From Flavivirga jejuensis (GTDB taxonomy: Bacteria; Bacteroidota; Bacteroidia; Flavobacteriales; Flavobacteriaceae): a stretch of 64,000 nucleotides of DNA. Shown here one piece after another: positions 1,869-55,351 of this stretch; positions within the stretch are counted from its first letter, which is position 1; every line of letters begins with the position of its first letter. Both the position numbers and the translations under genes were made by a program. The notes beneath the pieces were generated by a model that was given only the letters and a program-made list of their open reading frames with translations, was not told where the DNA came from and did no database searches. The stretch covers positions 930,001 to 994,000 of the forward strand of contig NZ_JAUOEL010000001.1 of NCBI RefSeq assembly GCF_030540765.1, written 5' to 3'.

Positions 1869-4800
1869 TTAGTTATTTTTAATAACTTTAACATTCATTT
1901 CTTCTACCTTTTTATTTGATAATAAAGATGGCGCTCCAAATAATAAATCTTCACTGGTTCCTGTTTTTGGGAATGCCATGACTTCACGAATAGATGCTTT
2001 TTTCTCTAAGATCATCATCAATCTATCAATACCCCAAGCTATCCCGCCGTGTGGTGGTGCACCATAATGAAAAGATTTATACATCGTACCAACGCTTTTA
2101 AGCATTTCTTCTTTATTGTAACCCATATTTTTATAGGTTGCTTCGAGTATTTCAGGTTTGTGAGCCCGAACAGAACCACCGCCTATTTCGTAACCATTTA
2201 AGATTAAGTCGTATTGCTGCGCGATGATATCTCCAATGTTATTCTCGTTGCCCTTCATATGCTTGTCTAAATCATATATCGCTGGCATAGAGAACGGGTT
2301 GTGTGTAAATGTCCAACGCCCTTCATCCGTTTTTTCAAACATAGGAAAATCTACGACCCATGCAGGTCTTAATTCCTTTGGGTTGATTAAACGCAACATG
2401 CTACCAAGTTCTTGGCGAACGGCGTCTAATGCTTTATTTGCAGTCCCATAATCTGCTGCCGAGAAAAACACAATGTCTCCTACTTGTGCCTCAGTTGTTT
2501 TAATAATACCAGCCGCAATGGTTTCACCTAAAAACTTAATAATTGGCGATTGTAAATCATTTTCATTAACAATAATATAGGCTAAACCACCCAAACCATG
2601 CTGTTGCGCAATGGCGGTTAACTTTTCTATTTGTCCTTTAGATAAACGTTTTTTTCCTTGTTCTTCGGCAGATACTTTTATACATTTTACAATACCACCT
2701 TCTTCAATAGGTTTGCTAAATACTTGGAAGGTTGTATCTTTTACAATATCTGTAATATCCTGTAGTTGTAAACCAAAACGTAGATCTGGTCTATCACAGC
2801 CATAATTGTCCATGGCTTCTTTATAAGTAAGAACTTCAAACGGGTGTAAAATCCATTTTTTACCATATACCTTTTTAACAATATCATTGAACATATTGGT
2901 GTTCAAATCTATAATTTGTTGCATACTGGCATAAGCCATTTCTAAATCTAACTGTGTAAATTCTGGTTGCCTATCGCCACGAGAATCTTCATCTCTAAAA
3001 CAACGTGCAATTTGGAAATACTTTTCGTAACCACTTACCATCAACATTTGTTTAAATTGTTGCGGTGCTTGTGGTAAGGTGTAAAATGCACCCGATTGTT
3101 TACGTGTTGGCACTATGAATTCGCGAGCACCTTCATCGGTACCTGCACTTAAAATAGGCGTTTCAATTTCTAAGAAATCTTGATCGTCTAAAATATCACG
3201 CATTAACTTGATAACCTTATGTCGGTTAACAATGACTCTACGAACATCATCATTTCTATGGTCTAAATATTTATATTGAAAACGAACATTTTCATTTGTT
3301 TTAGTGGCTCTTTTTATTTCAAAAGGCAGGGTTTTAGAAAGGTTTAAAATCTCTAAAGTAGCTGTTTCCATTTCTATTTTACCAGTTCGTAAAGCGGCAT
3401 TATAATCATCTTCTTTACGCTGTACGATTGTTCCAGTAACACTGATAACCGATTCTGGTTTTAATTTTACTAACTCGTCTAAATTAGGAAATGATTCTCT
3501 GCTTAAACGTACTTGAAAAACCTCGTTACTAGAATCTCGTAAATCGATAAAAATAAGCTCTCCATGATCGCGAACACTCGATACCCACCCAGAAAAAGTC
3601 ACTTCTTTAGAAATACTTTCTTCAGAAATATCTGAGATTAAATGCGTTCTGTATTCGTCTTTTATAATAATAGGAATTTCTGGTAAAACCTCTTCTTGTA
3701 TTTTGGTTGTTTTTGTTTGAGCTTCGACTGCGCTCAGCCTGACATTTGTTGTTGGTTGTTTAGTCGTTTGAGAAGAATTTTGCAATTGACCAATAATCCC
3801 TTCACGAATTATTTTTCCAGAAGCGCCTTTTCCAATAATGGCAATTACTTTACCAACAAGAATACCTGCTTTGCCTTGATTTCCTGCTTTAATATCATTT
3901 GCAATAGTTTCGTTTTCTGAAATTACTGTTGCAATAGCATCCTGAATTTTAGATTCTGAAATTGTGTTTTCTTCAAAATAGTTATTGTAATCAAAATCTC
4001 TGTCTTTAAGATACGATGTAATGGCATTTTGAACTAATACAGAGGTTATTTTTTCATCCTTAAATAGTTTGAAAATTTCAATGAGGTGTTCAATTCTATG
4101 TATGTTGGCATACGCATCTGCACCAATATTATTTACTAATGTTTTTGCAACAAAAGATGGATCTTTAAGCTCATTATTGATGGCGACAAAAGTTTCAGAG
4201 CGTAATGAATCTGCTGTAAAAAATTTAGCGTCTTGTGGTAAAACGCCCCCTTTAATTAAAATAGATTCTATGGCGAACGGCAGTGTGCTAGTATCAACAT
4301 TAATAGATTCTACGGCGTCTTTTATAGAAACAAAAGGTAGGTCGGGCTCTGAAATAAAACGATAATCGGCTTCAAACTCCTTTTTACGCATCGTTTTGGT
4401 TTGCTTTAAATCGGCATCCCATAAAACGGTGGTTTGATCTGGTCTAAACTCTTTATGTTCGATGTAATAGTCAAGCTGTTTTTCAATCTCTTCTTTTAAA
4501 GCCTCTACCATAAACTTAAACGAGTTTAAGTTTTTTATTTCGGTACGTGGATTTAAATTATAGCTGTGTTTTTTACGTAGCGATACAGAAACATCTGATT
4601 TAAACTCGCCTTTTTCAAGATTGGCTTCAGATATTTTTAAATTTTGAACAATACGTTGTATGTATTGTGCATAGGTTGAAGCATCTTCTATATGACGAAT
4701 ACAGGGTTCGGTTACAATTTCAATAAGTGGAACACCCGCTTTATTAAAATCGACTAACGACACAGTTTTTTCGTGCATCAATTTGGCAGCATCTTCTTCA

Positions 4801-5210
4801 ATATGTACCTGTGTTAAATTAACGGTAAATTGAGAGCCATCATTTCGGAAACAAGATACTTGCCCGTCGGGTATAATGGGGTTATGAAACTGTGTTATTT
4901 GAATATTTTTCGGGTTGTCTGGGTATTCGTAATGTTTTCTATCCCAAGAAATCACTTCGTTTTCAAAAGATGATTTTACTGCTTTTCCAAAATAAATAGC
5001 TTTGTTAATAGCTTCTTTATTAATAGCGGGTAAAACACCCATTTGCCCTGTGCAAACAGAACATATATTTTCGTTTGGTGTTTCAATGTCGTCGTTCGGG
5101 CAAGAACAAAACAACTTGGTTTTTGTGTTTAATCGTACATGTGTTTCTAGTCCGATTACCAATTCTAACTCGTGGGCTTTTAATGCCGCGTCTAATTGTT
5201 CCAGTTCCAT
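1869..5210 (-). CDS. gatB-aspS: Fusion protein: GatB amidotransferase subunit + aspartyl-tRNA synthetase
   Basis: This 1113-residue protein joins two normally separate enzymes. Residues 1 to about 480 are a full-length GatB: LVIGLETHVRLNT, zinc-type cysteines (CSCPN, CSVCTG), and a helical tail domain ending in KVIAIIGKGASGKIIREG. Residues about 518-1113 are a full-length bacterial AspRS: OB-fold (FSGWVSSVRDHG), class II motif 2 (FRDEDSRGDRQPEFTQ), an inserted GAD domain near 800-890, and motif 3 (GGIAWGIDRLMMIL). The linker (about 480-517) is low-complexity, and residues near 489-497 are encoded by a dispersed repeat (3719-3744). AspRS would form Asp-tRNA and GatB with GatCA would amidate it to Asn-tRNA, so the fusion could channel the intermediate. 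The start shares one base with the gatA stop (TAATG), implying coupling. Whether this AspRS is non-discriminating cannot be told by eye. Confidence 0.95.
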   Translation of the reverse strand: MELEQLDAALKAHELELVIGLETHVRLNTKTKLFCSCPNDDIETPNENICSVCTGQMGVLPAINKEAINKAIYFGKAVKSSFENEVISWDRKHYEYPDNPKNIQITQFHNPIIPDGQVSCFRNDGSQFTVNLTQVHIEEDAAKLMHEKTVSLVDFNKAGVPLIEIVTEPCIRHIEDASTYAQYIQRIVQNLKISEANLEKGEFKSDVSVSLRKKHSYNLNPRTEIKNLNSFKFMVEALKEEIEKQLDYYIEHKEFRPDQTTVLWDADLKQTKTMRKKEFEADYRFISEPDLPFVSIKDAVESINVDTSTLPFAIESILIKGGVLPQDAKFFTADSLRSETFVAINNELKDPSFVAKTLVNNIGADAYANIHRIEHLIEIFKLFKDEKITSVLVQNAITSYLKDRDFDYNNYFEENTISESKIQDAIATVISENETIANDIKAGNQGKAGILVGKVIAIIGKGASGKIIREGIIGQLQNSSQTTKQPTTNVRLSAVEAQTKTTKIQEEVLPEIPIIIKDEYRTHLISDISEESISKEVTFSGWVSSVRDHGELIFIDLRDSSNEVFQVRLSRESFPNLDELVKLKPESVISVTGTIVQRKEDDYNAALRTGKIEMETATLEILNLSKTLPFEIKRATKTNENVRFQYKYLDHRNDDVRRVIVNRHKVIKLMRDILDDQDFLEIETPILSAGTDEGAREFIVPTRKQSGAFYTLPQAPQQFKQMLMVSGYEKYFQIARCFRDEDSRGDRQPEFTQLDLEMAYASMQQIIDLNTNMFNDIVKKVYGKKWILHPFEVLTYKEAMDNYGCDRPDLRFGLQLQDITDIVKDTTFQVFSKPIEEGGIVKCIKVSAEEQGKKRLSKGQIEKLTAIAQQHGLGGLAYIIVNENDLQSPIIKFLGETIAAGIIKTTEAQVGDIVFFSAADYGTANKALDAVRQELGSMLRLINPKELRPAWVVDFPMFEKTDEGRWTFTHNPFSMPAIYDLDKHMKGNENNIGDIIAQQYDLILNGYEIGGGSVRAHKPEILEATYKNMGYNKEEMLKSVGTMYKSFHYGAPPHGGIAWGIDRLMMILEKKASIREVMAFPKTGTSEDLLFGAPSLLSNKKVEEMNVKVIKNN
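3719..3744. repeat. Dispersed CTTCGACTGCGCTCAG repeat inside the GatB-AspS linker
   Basis: The plus strand reads CTTCGACTGCGCTCAGCC then TGACA, a short repeat commonly found between genes in Flavobacteriaceae. Here it is read in frame on the minus strand as NVRLSAVEAQ in the fusion linker. A diverged copy lies at 43768-43799. Confidence 0.7.
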
Positions 5211-6610
5211 TATATCGTGTCTTTTAAGAAGTTAGCAAACTTCAAAACGAGTTCGTCATTATTTTTTGCTGCCGTAATTTGTAAACCTGTTTCTGTACCT
5301 TGAGGAACGGTTAAAGTTGGTAGTTGTCCCAAGCTAAAACCGACGGTGTAAGCATCAGATAGATACATGGCCAAAGGATTTTTTAAACTAGCGCCTATTT
5401 TTGGTGGTGTACTTGGTGTAACAGGGGATAAGATAATATCAACTTCTTCGAAATCTTTTTCAAAATTCTCAGAAATTGAATCTCTTAGGGCAAGTCCTTT
5501 TAAATATATTTCATCAGAAAACCCCTGAGATAATACTTGATTCCCCCCAACAATTCTGCGTTTGGTTTCTTCAGAGAATTTCTCAGACCGTGTTACAGCA
5601 TAAGATTCTTTTAAATTTGTATCATCAATACGATCTCCATAATTGGTGCCATCTAAGCGCGATAAGTTAGAGGCTGTTTCTGCCATAGCCAATGTGTAGT
5701 AGGTAGAAACGAGAATATCAGATTTAAAGAAATCCAGTTCTTTTACTTTAATACCTTTTGCTTTTATTTTTTCAATGGATGCTAAAAAGTCTTCTTTAAT
5801 TTGCGTATCAATCGCTTCGCTTTCAATAAAGTTTTTAAAGTAACCAACGGTTTTAATGCCTGTTGTGTCTAAAATGCTTGTTTCTTCAATGCTTTCTGAA
5901 GTATAAGTCGTTTGGTCTTTAGTGTCTTCTCCACTCATTGTATTTAAGACAATACGAATATCTTCAACAGATTTTGCTAAAGGTCCCACACAGTCTGTTG
6001 ATGATGCGTAAGCCATTAAACCGAAACGCGAAATACGTCCATAAGTTGGTTTTAAACCATATATATTATTATAACCAGCAGGTTGGCGTACTGAACCACC
6101 AGTATCTCCACCAATAGAAAAAACGGTATAATTTTTAGCAACATTTACGGCAGAGCCACCACTAGAGCCACCACCAACTAGTTCTGGGTTTATAGCGTTT
6201 TTAACAGCTCCAAAAATAGTATTTTCACTAGATGATCCATGACCAAAACTATCACAGTTTTCTTTTACAATGGGAATAGCGCCAGCATCCAATAATTTTT
6301 GAATGGCTGTGGCGGTATATGCCGATTTATACTTTTTAAGTAAGTCTGAACTCGCCGTTGCATAAGTGCCTTGTAGCATATATACATCTTTAATTCCAAA
6401 CGGAATCCCTTCAAGTAACCCAATAGTTTCGTTATTAGCAATTTTGGCATCTACCTTGGCGGCTTGTTCTAAAGCCAATTCAGTTAATAACGTGTTTACT
6501 GTGTTATAAGCGTTCTCTTTTAGGGCGCTTAACTTCTCTTGTATCAAGTCTACACAAGATATTTTCTTATTCATCAATTGTTGATGGATGTATCGTATTT
6601 GAGATTCCAT
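5210..6610 (-). CDS. gatA: Glutamyl/aspartyl-tRNA amidotransferase subunit A
   Basis: At 466 residues this is close to the usual GatA length (about 480). The amidase-signature Ser-cisSer-Lys triad is visible: Lys in GIPFGIKDV (about residue 73), GGSSGGSAV (about 147) and DTGGSVRQPAG (about 170). It hydrolyses glutamine and passes ammonia to GatB for amidation of misacylated Asp-tRNA(Asn) or Glu-tRNA(Gln). It lies 3 bp after the gatC-like gene and overlaps the gatB-aspS start, so all three are translated from one mRNA. That mRNA begins at the Asn-rich leader near 7009. Confidence 0.96.
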   Translation of the reverse strand: MESQIRYIHQQLMNKKISCVDLIQEKLSALKENAYNTVNTLLTELALEQAAKVDAKIANNETIGLLEGIPFGIKDVYMLQGTYATASSDLLKKYKSAYTATAIQKLLDAGAIPIVKENCDSFGHGSSSENTIFGAVKNAINPELVGGGSSGGSAVNVAKNYTVFSIGGDTGGSVRQPAGYNNIYGLKPTYGRISRFGLMAYASSTDCVGPLAKSVEDIRIVLNTMSGEDTKDQTTYTSESIEETSILDTTGIKTVGYFKNFIESEAIDTQIKEDFLASIEKIKAKGIKVKELDFFKSDILVSTYYTLAMAETASNLSRLDGTNYGDRIDDTNLKESYAVTRSEKFSEETKRRIVGGNQVLSQGFSDEIYLKGLALRDSISENFEKDFEEVDIILSPVTPSTPPKIGASLKNPLAMYLSDAYTVGFSLGQLPTLTVPQGTETGLQITAAKNNDELVLKFANFLKDTI

Positions 6611-6613
6611 AAT

Positions 6614-6883
6614 CTATGCCTCTATAACTTTAGAAACTACTAAATAGCCATCCTTCTCTTTCGGGAAATTTTCTTTAATGATTTGTTTTTCTAAAGTAGA
6701 ACTTTCAATCACTTCATCATTTCTCAAATTATTTATAGACACACAATTATTATGATTATTATTAAAGGAATTATTATTTGTTGTTTGTGCATTTTTAATC
6801 ACATCAAATAATCTGTTCACAGCCTCAGAGGGTTGTGCGCCTTTAATACTCGACAATACGTCGACTGTCATAATTTTACTCAT
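6614..6883 (-). CDS. gatC: Divergent GatC-like subunit with an Asn-rich tract
   Basis: The product has 89 residues. The second half, LRNDEVIESSTLEKQIIKE then FPKEKDGYLVVSKVIEA, matches the conserved GatC end (LReDEV ... edGyf.VPkvi). The first half is poorly conserved but has about the right length and spacing for the GatC helix. Where ordinary GatC has the VDT-GVEP loop, this protein has NNNSFNNNHNNC. GatC is the small scaffold that stabilises GatA and binds GatB. Position (first gene, 3 bp before gatA) and the C-terminal motif support the call. The Asn-rich insertion is unusual and may be a second sensor or just a low-complexity loop. The start ATG follows the attenuator terminator by about 18 bp. 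Confidence 0.75.
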   Translation of the reverse strand: MSKIMTVDVLSSIKGAQPSEAVNRLFDVIKNAQTTNNNSFNNNHNNCVSINNLRNDEVIESSTLEKQIIKENFPKEKDGYLVVSKVIEA

Positions 6884-6900
6884 GGTTTCATTTATTAGAT

Positions 6901-6935
6901 TAACAAAAAAAAGCCTTCCAAATTTGGAAGGCTTT
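6901..6935 (-). terminator. Attenuator terminator of the gatCAB-aspS operon
   Basis: Plus positions 6910-6935 form a perfect 26-nt palindrome (arm AAAGCCTTCCAAA) followed on the minus strand by a run of T. It sits between the Asn-rich leader peptide and the gatC start. The upstream TTGGAAGG (minus; plus 6955-6962) can pair perfectly with the 5' arm (CCTTCCAA) and so act as antiterminator. A pause hairpin, 8-bp stem at 6961-6968/6972-6979, overlaps the last leader codons and stop. Confidence 0.85.
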
Positions 6936-6964
6936 ATATATTTTTAAACAATAACCTTCCAATC

Positions 6965-7009
6965 CTAAAAATTAGGATTATTGAAATTATTATTGTTATT
7001 ATTTGTCAT
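6965..7009 (-). CDS. Asn-rich leader peptide (attenuation sensor)
   Basis: A 14-codon ORF reads MTNNNNNNFNNPNF and then TAG: 9 of 14 residues are Asn. The ATG is about 18 bp downstream of a TATATTTG promoter element, and a strong terminator lies 30-64 bp after the stop. This mirrors the Trp leader at 55245-55301. Ribosome stalling at Asn codons when Asn-tRNA is uncharged would mask the first pause-hairpin arm and favour the antiterminator. The downstream genes make Asn-tRNA, so the codon bias matches the pathway exactly. The mechanism is inferred from trp/his-type attenuation; the peptide and hairpins are seen directly. Confidence 0.85.
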   Translation of the reverse strand: MTNNNNNNFNNPNF

Positions 7010-7026
7010 AATGCTTGTTCTGTTGT

Positions 7027-7034
7027 CAAATATA
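7027..7034 (-). promoter_or_regulatory. Putative promoter (-7 TATATTTG) of the gatCAB-aspS leader
   Basis: The minus strand reads TATATTTG, matching the Bacteroidota -7 consensus TAnnTTTG, 18 bp before the leader ATG. A clear -33 TTG is not obvious. The trp operon has the same element at nearly the same distance from its leader start. Confidence 0.6.
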
Positions 7035-7569
7035 TATAGAAAAATTCACTAAACATCATTTTTTACTCATCTAATATTTTTATTGTCAAATTAATAAAAA
7101 ACTTAAAATTAATTTATTGGTTTTATAATGATTATTCGTTTAGGCTTCATTCTTGATAGAATGTTTGGTAGTTATAAATCAGAAAAAAAGATTTTTATTT
7201 GTTTTGTTAATCATTTTGTTAAGGTTTTTAAACTACCATGTCCAGGCAGTTTTTATTTAGTTGTTTTACGTTTTTACCTCATAAGTTAATTTTAAATGGA
7301 TTAAAATAAATGCTTTTTTAGTTGATAATTTAGATTTGTTTTTTTACGAAATTTTAAACCCAAATTTGTGAAAAAATGGATTGTTGATAAATAATTTTAT
7401 TGATTAATATTTTTTAAAGCTGCCATGTTTTTGGTAGCTTTTTTATTAATGTATTCATTTTTATAAAAATAATGGCATAATATGTCCTTTCGGGCTATTT
7501 TGGTCTTTTTGGAGTGAATAGATGGTGTTTGAGTTTCTATTTTTGCATGAAATTTATAACCCTAATAAT
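7035..7569. other. AT-rich intergenic region without a recognisable gene
   Basis: No ORF of credible composition is visible. It contains an imperfect hairpin at 7231-7251 (AACTACC/GGCAGTT) and a clearer terminator-like hairpin at 7416-7445. Both resemble the element at 8063-8092. Confidence 0.5.
7416..7445 (+). terminator. Terminator-like hairpin (AAGCTGCCA/TGGTAGCTT)
   Basis: A stem of about 9 bp with one wobble encloses a short loop and runs into T-rich sequence. It has no intact gene upstream, so it may be an orphan of a lost gene or end a small RNA. Confidence 0.5.
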
Positions 7570-53537: not shown

Positions 53538-53702
53538 GCCACGAATACACGAATGTTTTCTAGACTTTTATCCTTGTTTTTTTACTATTCTACCAACTAA
53601 GGTTTAATCATGCTGGTTGATTTGCGTTAGGGATTGCAGCGGCATCCTTTTGCTTTTTTTGCAAAAGATATAGCGGAAAGCCCGACCCCTGTGGTAACGC
53701 CA
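53538..53702. repeat. Dispersed repeats between trpG and trpE
   Basis: GCCACGAATACACGAAT (53538-53554) is followed by an element containing GGGATTGCAGCGGCATCC, TTTTGCAAAAGATATAGCGG and CCCGACCCC. All are common intergenic repeats of Bacteroidota. There is no ORF. Confidence 0.65.
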
Positions 53703-55176: not shown

Positions 55177-55211
55177 AAAAAAAGGCTTGTCGTGAATGAC
55201 AAGCCTTTTTT
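55177..55211 (-). terminator. trp attenuator terminator
   Basis: AAAGGCTTGTC pairs with GACAAGCCTTT around a 6-nt loop, with a T run on the minus strand. It lies 34 bp after the Trp leader stop. Confidence 0.9.
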
Positions 55212-55244
55212 GATATTTTGAGTTTTAAATATACTAGGTTTCCT

Positions 55245-55301
55245 TCACGAACGTAAGTTTCTGAAGCTCCACCACCAAGTATTATTTAAAATTATATTCA
55301 T
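55245..55301 (-). CDS. trpL: trp operon leader peptide
   Basis: The 18-residue ORF reads MNIILNNTWWWSFRNLRS then TGA, with three consecutive Trp codons. It lies between a TATATTTG promoter and the terminator at 55177-55211. This is the classic layout for ribosome-mediated attenuation: low Trp-tRNA stalls the ribosome and prevents termination before trpE. Confidence 0.92.
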   Translation of the reverse strand: MNIILNNTWWWSFRNLRS

Positions 55302-55320
55302 CTTATTCTTTTAATTGGTT

Positions 55321-55351
55321 CAAATATAGAAATGAAAATATAAATACACAA
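55321..55351 (-). promoter_or_regulatory. trp operon promoter
   Basis: The minus strand reads TTG, 20 bp spacer and TATATTTG (plus 55321-55328), 20 bp before the leader ATG. It fits the Bacteroidota consensus. Confidence 0.7.

Follow-up and report, generated by a model that had tools for sequence, protein, structure and literature searches.

Leader-peptide attenuators of the Trp, His, Leu, Thr, Phe and Ilv kinds, Bacteroid-trp (RF01692) included, share a short open reading frame (ORF) rich in the regulatory codon, a leader stem, an antiterminator and a terminator, placed ahead of the cognate biosynthetic genes. The locus described here has the same layout, and differs from them in that its regulatory codons are those of Asn and that the controlled genes yield an aminoacyl-tRNA instead of the free amino acid. 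These genes encode a GatCAB amidotransferase and an AspRS, as in the Asn-transamidosome of Pseudomonas aeruginosa (PDB entries 4wj3 and 4wj4). There too a bacterial-type AspRS with the His of an RDHG motif works with GatCAB, although as a non-covalent complex, whereas here GatB and AspRS lie on one chain.

In the parts of the literature cited here, Bdellovibrio and Staphylococcus aureus are described as having an ND-AspRS and GatCAB beside AsnRS without AsnA or AsnB, and the Bacteroidetes are counted among the genera with AsnRS, GlnRS and GatCAB and no Asn synthetase (PMC4206432). As that pathway is presented there, Asn is made on tRNA only and AsnRS is kept for free Asn, which resembles the present case; in contrast, the AspRS here is a second copy fused to GatB, the canonical AspRS is retained and the operon carries an Asn leader. 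In Clostridium acetobutylicum a T-box with two codons regulates the operon for tRNA-dependent transamidation, as described in PMC4052509 and in work cited by PMC4206432 (Saad 2012, 2013), so that there also tRNA-Asn controls an operon for tRNA-dependent amidation. In that T-box the tRNA (also tRNA-Glu) binds the mRNA directly, whereas here the translating ribosome would be the sensor. Clues to leader-peptide attenuation before amino-acid operons are given for Flavobacterium psychrophilum in the text cited (PMC9723704); the main text of that paper holds no word starting with “asparag”, and an asnB leader could still be in its tables. Searches of the open PMC literature yielded no recognisable Asn leader-peptide attenuator. 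The mechanistic kind is known; Asn with a gatCAB::aspS target is without a precedent that we found as a ribosome-sensed leader.

We analysed a 64-kb stretch of Flavivirga jejuensis DNA (the window), in which gatC-gatA-gatB::aspS is very probably under the control of a trp-type attenuator that responds to tRNA-Asn charging. By gene content, this operon would make Asn on tRNA and replace asparagine synthetase.

Architecture of the Leader Locus

The leader ORF is placed between a promoter and a terminator, 81 nt upstream of gatC-gatA-gatB::aspS (table 1). The 14-residue peptide with nine Asn of the original prediction is confirmed by the reading of this ORF, as are the perfect terminator hairpin with its T run and the exact complementarity of TTGGAAGG to CCTTCCAA as antiterminator. 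The promoter box is confirmed too, TATATTTG matching TAnnTTTG, the −7 consensus of Bacteroidota-type promoters; its distance to the leader ATG, given earlier as 18 bp, is 17 nt. The pause hairpin placed at 6961–6979 is present, although in relatives only its core, CCTAA/TTAGG, is well kept. Absent from the original prediction is a longer stem formed by AACAATAA and TTATTGTT, which completes a trp-like 1:2 hairpin; with it besides the pause hairpin, the leader RNA has all four regions of a trp-type attenuator.

Table 1. Features of the leader locus and the operon behind it (positions in the window)
Feature	Position	Strand	Remarks
−7 box (TAnnTTTG) TATATTTG	7027..7034	−	Bacteroidota-type promoter
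Leader ORF MTNNNNNNFNNPNF	6965..7009	−	14 codons, 9 Asn; ATG 7009–7007, stop TAG 6967–6965
AACAATAA	6990..6997	−	5′ arm of leader (1:2) stem, inside the Asn codons
CCTAA-NNN-TTAGG hairpin	6964..6976	−	Across last codons and stop codon; inner part of 1:2
TTGGAAGG	6955..6962	−	Antiterminator 5′ strand (region 2)
TTATTGTT	6947..6954	−	3′ arm of leader stem
CCTTCCAA	6924..6931	−	Region 3, strand common to antiterminator and terminator
Intrinsic terminator	6905..6935	−	Perfect hairpin 6935–6910, 11 pairs, then T tract
gatC	6614..6883	−	Divergent; Asn-rich internal stretch; weak family scores
gatA	5210..6610	−	Amidase subunit; over Pfam cut-off
gatB::aspS	1869..5210	−	Fusion, 1113 aa; GatB about 14–477, bacterial-type AspRS about 519–1113

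In the window, this leader is the single ATG-started ORF of 8–35 codons with at least six Asn codons in succession; one such ORF turned up in 100 Markov-resampled windows. Terminator-like sites number six on both strands of the 1.9 kb, where shuffles average 0.4, and the 139-nt leader folds with a z-score of −6.0, none of 200 shuffles being equally good.

Conservation and Spread of the Leader

Relatives were compared in two sets. Among 46 stretches from the same family, 44 have gatC and readable upstream DNA (L053 and L078, with no gatC on the stretch, were dropped), and 27 of these 44 carry the leader element, one of them with a GTG start, while 17 have no leader. Among 80 named loci, of which 77 could be scored (L143, L151 and L155 lack upstream DNA), the element is found in 50, from Flavivirga, Tamlana, Algibacter, Polaribacter and others, and 27 are leaderless. 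Relatives thus keep both the Asn run and the alternative hairpins, contrary to the lack of conservation that the original prediction named as its refutation. A TAnnTTTG box lies 11–19 nt upstream of the leader start in 27/27 family loci.

A covariance model built from the 27 family elements and run on 299 family genomes gave strong matches (E < 1e-12) in 29, every one just upstream of gatC; the next best match has an E value of 3.2e-5. Fusion genomes account for 28 of the 29, namely the 27 model loci and G170, in which leader and gatC are on a different contig from the fusion; in the remaining one, G124, gatC is directly downstream and the contig stops inside gatA. On the leader contig of G170 (L171), the gatA sequence behind gatC has just 65% identity over 65 residues, against 87% for the gatA of its fusion contig (L078); perhaps the operon is duplicated there, or the bin is mixed.

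Codon by codon, the run is held as Asn at its positions 2, 3, 4 and 6 in 63, 65, 66 and 66 of 66 aligned rows (L120, a shorter row, was left out), with AAT and AAC exchanged in run codons 1–3. Run codon 5 is Asn in 52 rows and Arg in ten (nine Polaribacter and G271), with Thr and Leu also tolerated, and the codon preceding the stop is free to vary. The TAG stop itself falls at one offset in 64 of 67 rows.

Leaderless loci have a different sequence near gatC, with a TTT(C/T)GTAATTT box in 17 of the 27 named ones. Two of them, L039 and L099, have four Asn codons in succession upstream in some frame, with no leader-type ORF past the filter or no model match. In many (L052, L069, L096, L099, L106 and others) gatC is preceded by AAAACTTTCGTAATTTTGC..GCTTAAAAGTTT, where a TAnnTTTG-like box is enclosed by the inverted repeat AAACTTT/AAAGTTT, possibly an operator.

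A quick tree built from 94 fusion proteins requires at least ten changes of leader state, and the deepest branches are leaderless, their order being unsure (long branches). Outside the family, the fusion stands behind gatC-gatA in 8 of the 247 class genomes, which belong to a single other family and have it at 58–69% identity; roughly 0.5 kb translated before gatC holds no leader-like Asn run in these eight loci. The fusion is therefore probably older than the leader.

Covariation and Predicted Switching

Pairing in the stems is high throughout. Cells of the leader stem and terminator taken together are paired at 98.0% in 27 sequences and 96.0% in 67, those of the AACAATAA/TTATTGTT arm at 98.6% and 96.2%, and those of the CCTAA/TTAGG hairpin at 96.9% and 93.3%. 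Compensatory change is scarce, however: pairs of the leader stem and terminator changed on both sides number two in the 27 sequences (reached by 10 of 500 shuffles) and three in the 67 (79 of 500). The six-pair core of the antiterminator is paired in 98.7% of cells, its pairs being invariant or variable in a single strand, and shuffled controls do equally well; with two flanking pairs added, 89.4% of cells are paired, again like the shuffles. Covariation is weak because the sequence of the element hardly varies, and we dropped it as proof of the stems, with few compensatory changes and an antiterminator that does not exceed its shuffles.

We folded 67 aligned elements under a ribosome mask, with the transcript ending before the 3′ arm of the terminator, the stall state having the P site on the last Asn of the run, the stop state having the stop codon in the A site, and the front edge counted from the start of the P-site codon. 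The antiterminator forms with the ribosome on the Asn run in 66 of 67 elements, the exception being the relative L163. At the stop codon it is buried in all 67 when the front is placed at +16 to +18, in 55/67 at +15, the other 12 having part of region 2 free, and in 2/67 at +13; as modelled, burial depends on the assumed ribosome footprint. The terminator forms in the free RNA of all 67. The mutually exclusive antiterminator of trp-type attenuators, free on stalling and covered at the stop, is thus found here by folding. In the window's own RNA the terminator reaches −16.3 kcal/mol against about −13 for the antiterminator; since the terminator is only slightly the stronger, the choice between them must be kinetic. 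In the trp attenuator this choice is kinetic as well.

Anatomy, conservation, alternative folds and the complementarity of gene content described below were computed, and from these we infer a ribosomal stall, a termination ratio and a fused AspRS that accepts tRNA-Asn. Transcription would start just upstream of the leader. With Asn-tRNA plentiful, the ribosome would reach TAG, its front covering GGAAGG (region 2), so that CCTTCC (region 3) would pair with the GGAAGG of region 4 and transcription would end before gatC. With Asn-tRNA scarce, it would stall in the Asn codons and open the 1:2 stem; region 2 would then capture region 3, and the operon would be transcribed. The fused AspRS would load Asp on tRNA-Asn and GatCAB would amidate it to Asn-tRNA-Asn, the molecule that the leader is predicted to sense.

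Asn Leaders Upstream of asnB and asnA

Leaders of this kind are not confined to the fusion operon. Upstream of canonical asnB, an Asn-rich short ATG ORF followed by a terminator-like hairpin was found in 8 of 36 fusion-less genomes (loci L188, L231–L234, L240, L244 and L246), with peptides such as MLLFNLNNNNNNNPLP and MSLNNNIRINNNFLQR. Five of the eight have a perfect terminator stem, the stem being imperfect in L244 and L232 as folded and in L246 as judged from its sequence. Antiterminator-like pairing on stalling, with none at the stop, was predicted in five of the eight (L234, L244, L231, L232 and L188); the folds of L240, L233 and L246 are uninformative, a wrong T run having been used. The other 28 asnB upstream regions have no countable ORF, among them L245 with a 43-residue ORF of scattered Asn and three with TTG-started ORFs. 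The asnB leaders retain Asn runs but not the FNNP of the gatC leader.

In G007 (L194), two successive Asn-rich ORFs lie upstream of asnA, at about 325 and 180 nt from the asnA match (1501). Behind MNLNTNNNPFNNNLNNFRLRKAYIV (10 of 25 residues Asn) come an 11-pair stem and T's, and a further hairpin with T's, seen in the sequence, overlaps MTTTRKNNQNNNDPPPGG...; this region is perhaps a tandem attenuator. No Asn-rich ORF passed the filter at the asnA of G033, and the 400 nt before the asnS match of the window's own genome hold no Asn leader. Asn leaders thus precede three kinds of Asn-making gene, gatCAB::aspS, asnB and asnA, and those of asnB and asnA are unrelated in sequence to the gatC leader.

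These leaders bear on two other readings of the gatC locus. The hairpin could be a plain terminator, an mRNA-stabilising element or a roadblock, and the Asn-rich ORF an untranslated accident of AT-rich DNA. The region is AT-rich, a hairpin by itself would be conserved too, and the element is dispensed with in 17 of 44 loci; however, Asn identity is held across the 66 rows through synonymous exchange, such ORFs arise in about one resampled window in a hundred, the TAG offset is the same in 64 of 67 rows, all 29 strong matches lie upstream of gatC, and asnB and asnA carry Asn leaders too. We consider this reading improbable. Slightly more improbable still is sensing by the nascent peptide, an arrest peptide that binds free Asn or another ligand in place of codon-specific stalling. 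The high conservation of FNNP, whose Pro could slow the ribosome, speaks for it, but the codons around FNNP form or flank the CCTAA/TTAGG stem, so that RNA pairing can explain much of this conservation, and run codon 5 tolerates Arg, Thr and Leu; the absence of FNNP from the asnB leaders also speaks against it.

The Operon and Its Fused AspRS

Of the genes named earlier behind the leader, those for GatA, GatB and AspRS are well supported, while GatC scores weakly, below both family cut-offs (Pfam 21.4 bits against 23, TIGR00135 27 against 47.1), with its match in the C-terminal part and the gene in its expected place. GatA passes the Pfam cut-off and falls below that of TIGR00132 (429 against 481), and GatB passes the Pfam and two NCBIfam cut-offs and not the lineage-specific ones. 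The internal stretch of GatC, NNNSFNNNHNN, varies among relatives and is less marked in the other family that has the fusion.

The fusion is present in 46 of 299 family genomes, at 78–91% identity in the 45 relatives (a partial contig is among them); among the matches listed, the remaining genomes have AspRS-type matches only, at about 40%. The best named matches are from Flavivirga. Beside the fusion, the genome of the window (6.0 Mb) has a separate canonical AspRS, AsnRS and GlnRS. RDHG is present in the fused AspRS of all 126 loci examined, 80 of them named loci and 46 family stretches, with some genomes in both sets, and 4wj3, entered in the PDB table as Aspartate--tRNA(Asp/Asn) ligase, has the same His. 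At this position Leu is found in 6hhv, 1efw and 1eqr, enzymes of Thermus thermophilus and Escherichia coli, and Lys in 6wom and in the canonical AspRS of the window's genome; the canonical AspRS of six genomes reads RDKG in all six. In work on the P. aeruginosa enzyme this His reportedly matters for accepting tRNA-Asn, and Gly82 is said to be a second non-discrimination residue. The fusion does not share Gly82, having Asp there. The fused AspRS may accept tRNA-Asn. The U1-A72 pair was seen in the one tRNA-Asn of each of six genomes examined, two of them fusion-less, and was rejected as a mark of the fusion pathway, occurring with and without the fusion alike.

A Probable Replacement for Asparagine Synthetase

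Gene content points to the function of the operon. In 80 family genomes, all at least 90% complete and chosen as 42 with and 38 without the fusion, GatB is present in 42/42 of the former and 0/38 of the latter. Canonical AsnB (query L188, 299 family genomes, threshold 1e-150) occurs in 215 genomes and in none of the 46 with the fusion, leaving 38 with neither; of these 38, G007 and G033 have AsnA, G031 has an AsnB at 459 bits, and in G124 the contig ends inside gatA. The contrast holds within genera, with the fusion in G006 and AsnB in G240 of g7, and the fusion in G269 and AsnB in G047 of g47. AsnB proteins over the NCBIfam cut-off are found in 38/38 fusion-less genomes against 15/42 fusion genomes, the latter being other AsnB-like proteins, and AsnA in 2 of the 80, both fusion-less and both without canonical AsnB. 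The window's genome has neither AsnA (1e-20) nor an AsnB over the cut-off. Because fusion and canonical AsnB exclude each other across genomes, we conclude from gene content that the fusion operon replaces the canonical asparagine synthetase.

Of the 80 genomes, 77 have AsnRS, among them 39 of the 42 with the fusion; it is missing (TIGR00457 at 1e-60) only from the fusion genomes G237, G180 and G228. In these three, which have GlnRS and are all leaderless, the operon should, judging by the genes present, be the sole source of Asn-tRNA. AsnRS is found in each of the 25 leader-bearing genomes of the 42, and the three genomes without it are all among the 17 leaderless ones, an association with a chance probability of about 0.06 (calculated by hand, kinship ignored). 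It is suggestive only, and fits the idea that without AsnRS the operon can never be spared. GlnRS was found in 10 of 10 genomes tested, seven of them with the fusion, and GatCAB is therefore not needed for Gln-tRNA. That the attenuator is real and the operon serves mainly the repair or quality control of Asn-tRNA, or Gln-tRNA, rather than Asn supply is as improbable as sensing by the nascent peptide. AsnRS, which makes free Asn usable too in most fusion genomes, speaks for this reading, but the complementarity with canonical AsnB and AsnA, the GlnRS of every genome tested and the three fusion genomes without AsnRS all speak against it.

The tRNA-dependent Asn route of the original prediction is therefore supported by gene content, and its reading of the leader is supported as well; its indirect route to Asn-tRNA is better described as the replacement of asparagine synthetase than as a back-up. 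If the attenuator works as proposed, asparagine joins the amino acids read by leader-peptide attenuators, and the locus is a ribosome-based counterpart of the Clostridium T-box on the same pathway, with a one-chain GatB-AspRS standing in for asparagine synthetase across a large flavobacterial group. Judging by the asnB and asnA leaders, the charging of Asn-tRNA may serve as a control signal more widely within the family. Going further, we lean towards the view that attenuation at Asn codons is a general flavobacterial control of Asn supply which arose several times on unrelated sequences, before asnB, once before asnA, and before the GatB-AspRS fusion as a covalently joined transamidosome in place of asparagine synthetase. 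Because no free Asn is made by the fusion pathway, the ribosome would there sense the immediate product of the pathway itself, Asn-tRNA, and lineages without AsnRS would keep the operon always on and be leaderless.

Other RNA Elements

No Rfam family reaches its threshold at the leader locus, the best being Phe_leader with 35 bits against 55. T-box has no match in the window at gathering scores, and none up to E = 10 at 6850–7100. A Flavo-1 RNA (RF01705) lies at 53619–53691 (+).

Ten weaker matches of our covariance model (43–51 bits) were inspected, and none holds four or more Asn in succession within the part matched. Among such sub-threshold matches, L174 and L177 precede ilvD-like genes and L180 and L181 ilvE-like genes (names from protein starts only); these four resemble Ile/Val-rich leader attenuators and have a similar GCCTTCC/GGAAGGC terminator. 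The only match of Bacteroid-trp (RF01692) in the window is not at the leader locus but at 55198–55321 (−), where TTGGTGGTGGAGC contains Trp codons and GGCTTGTC forms a terminator arm.
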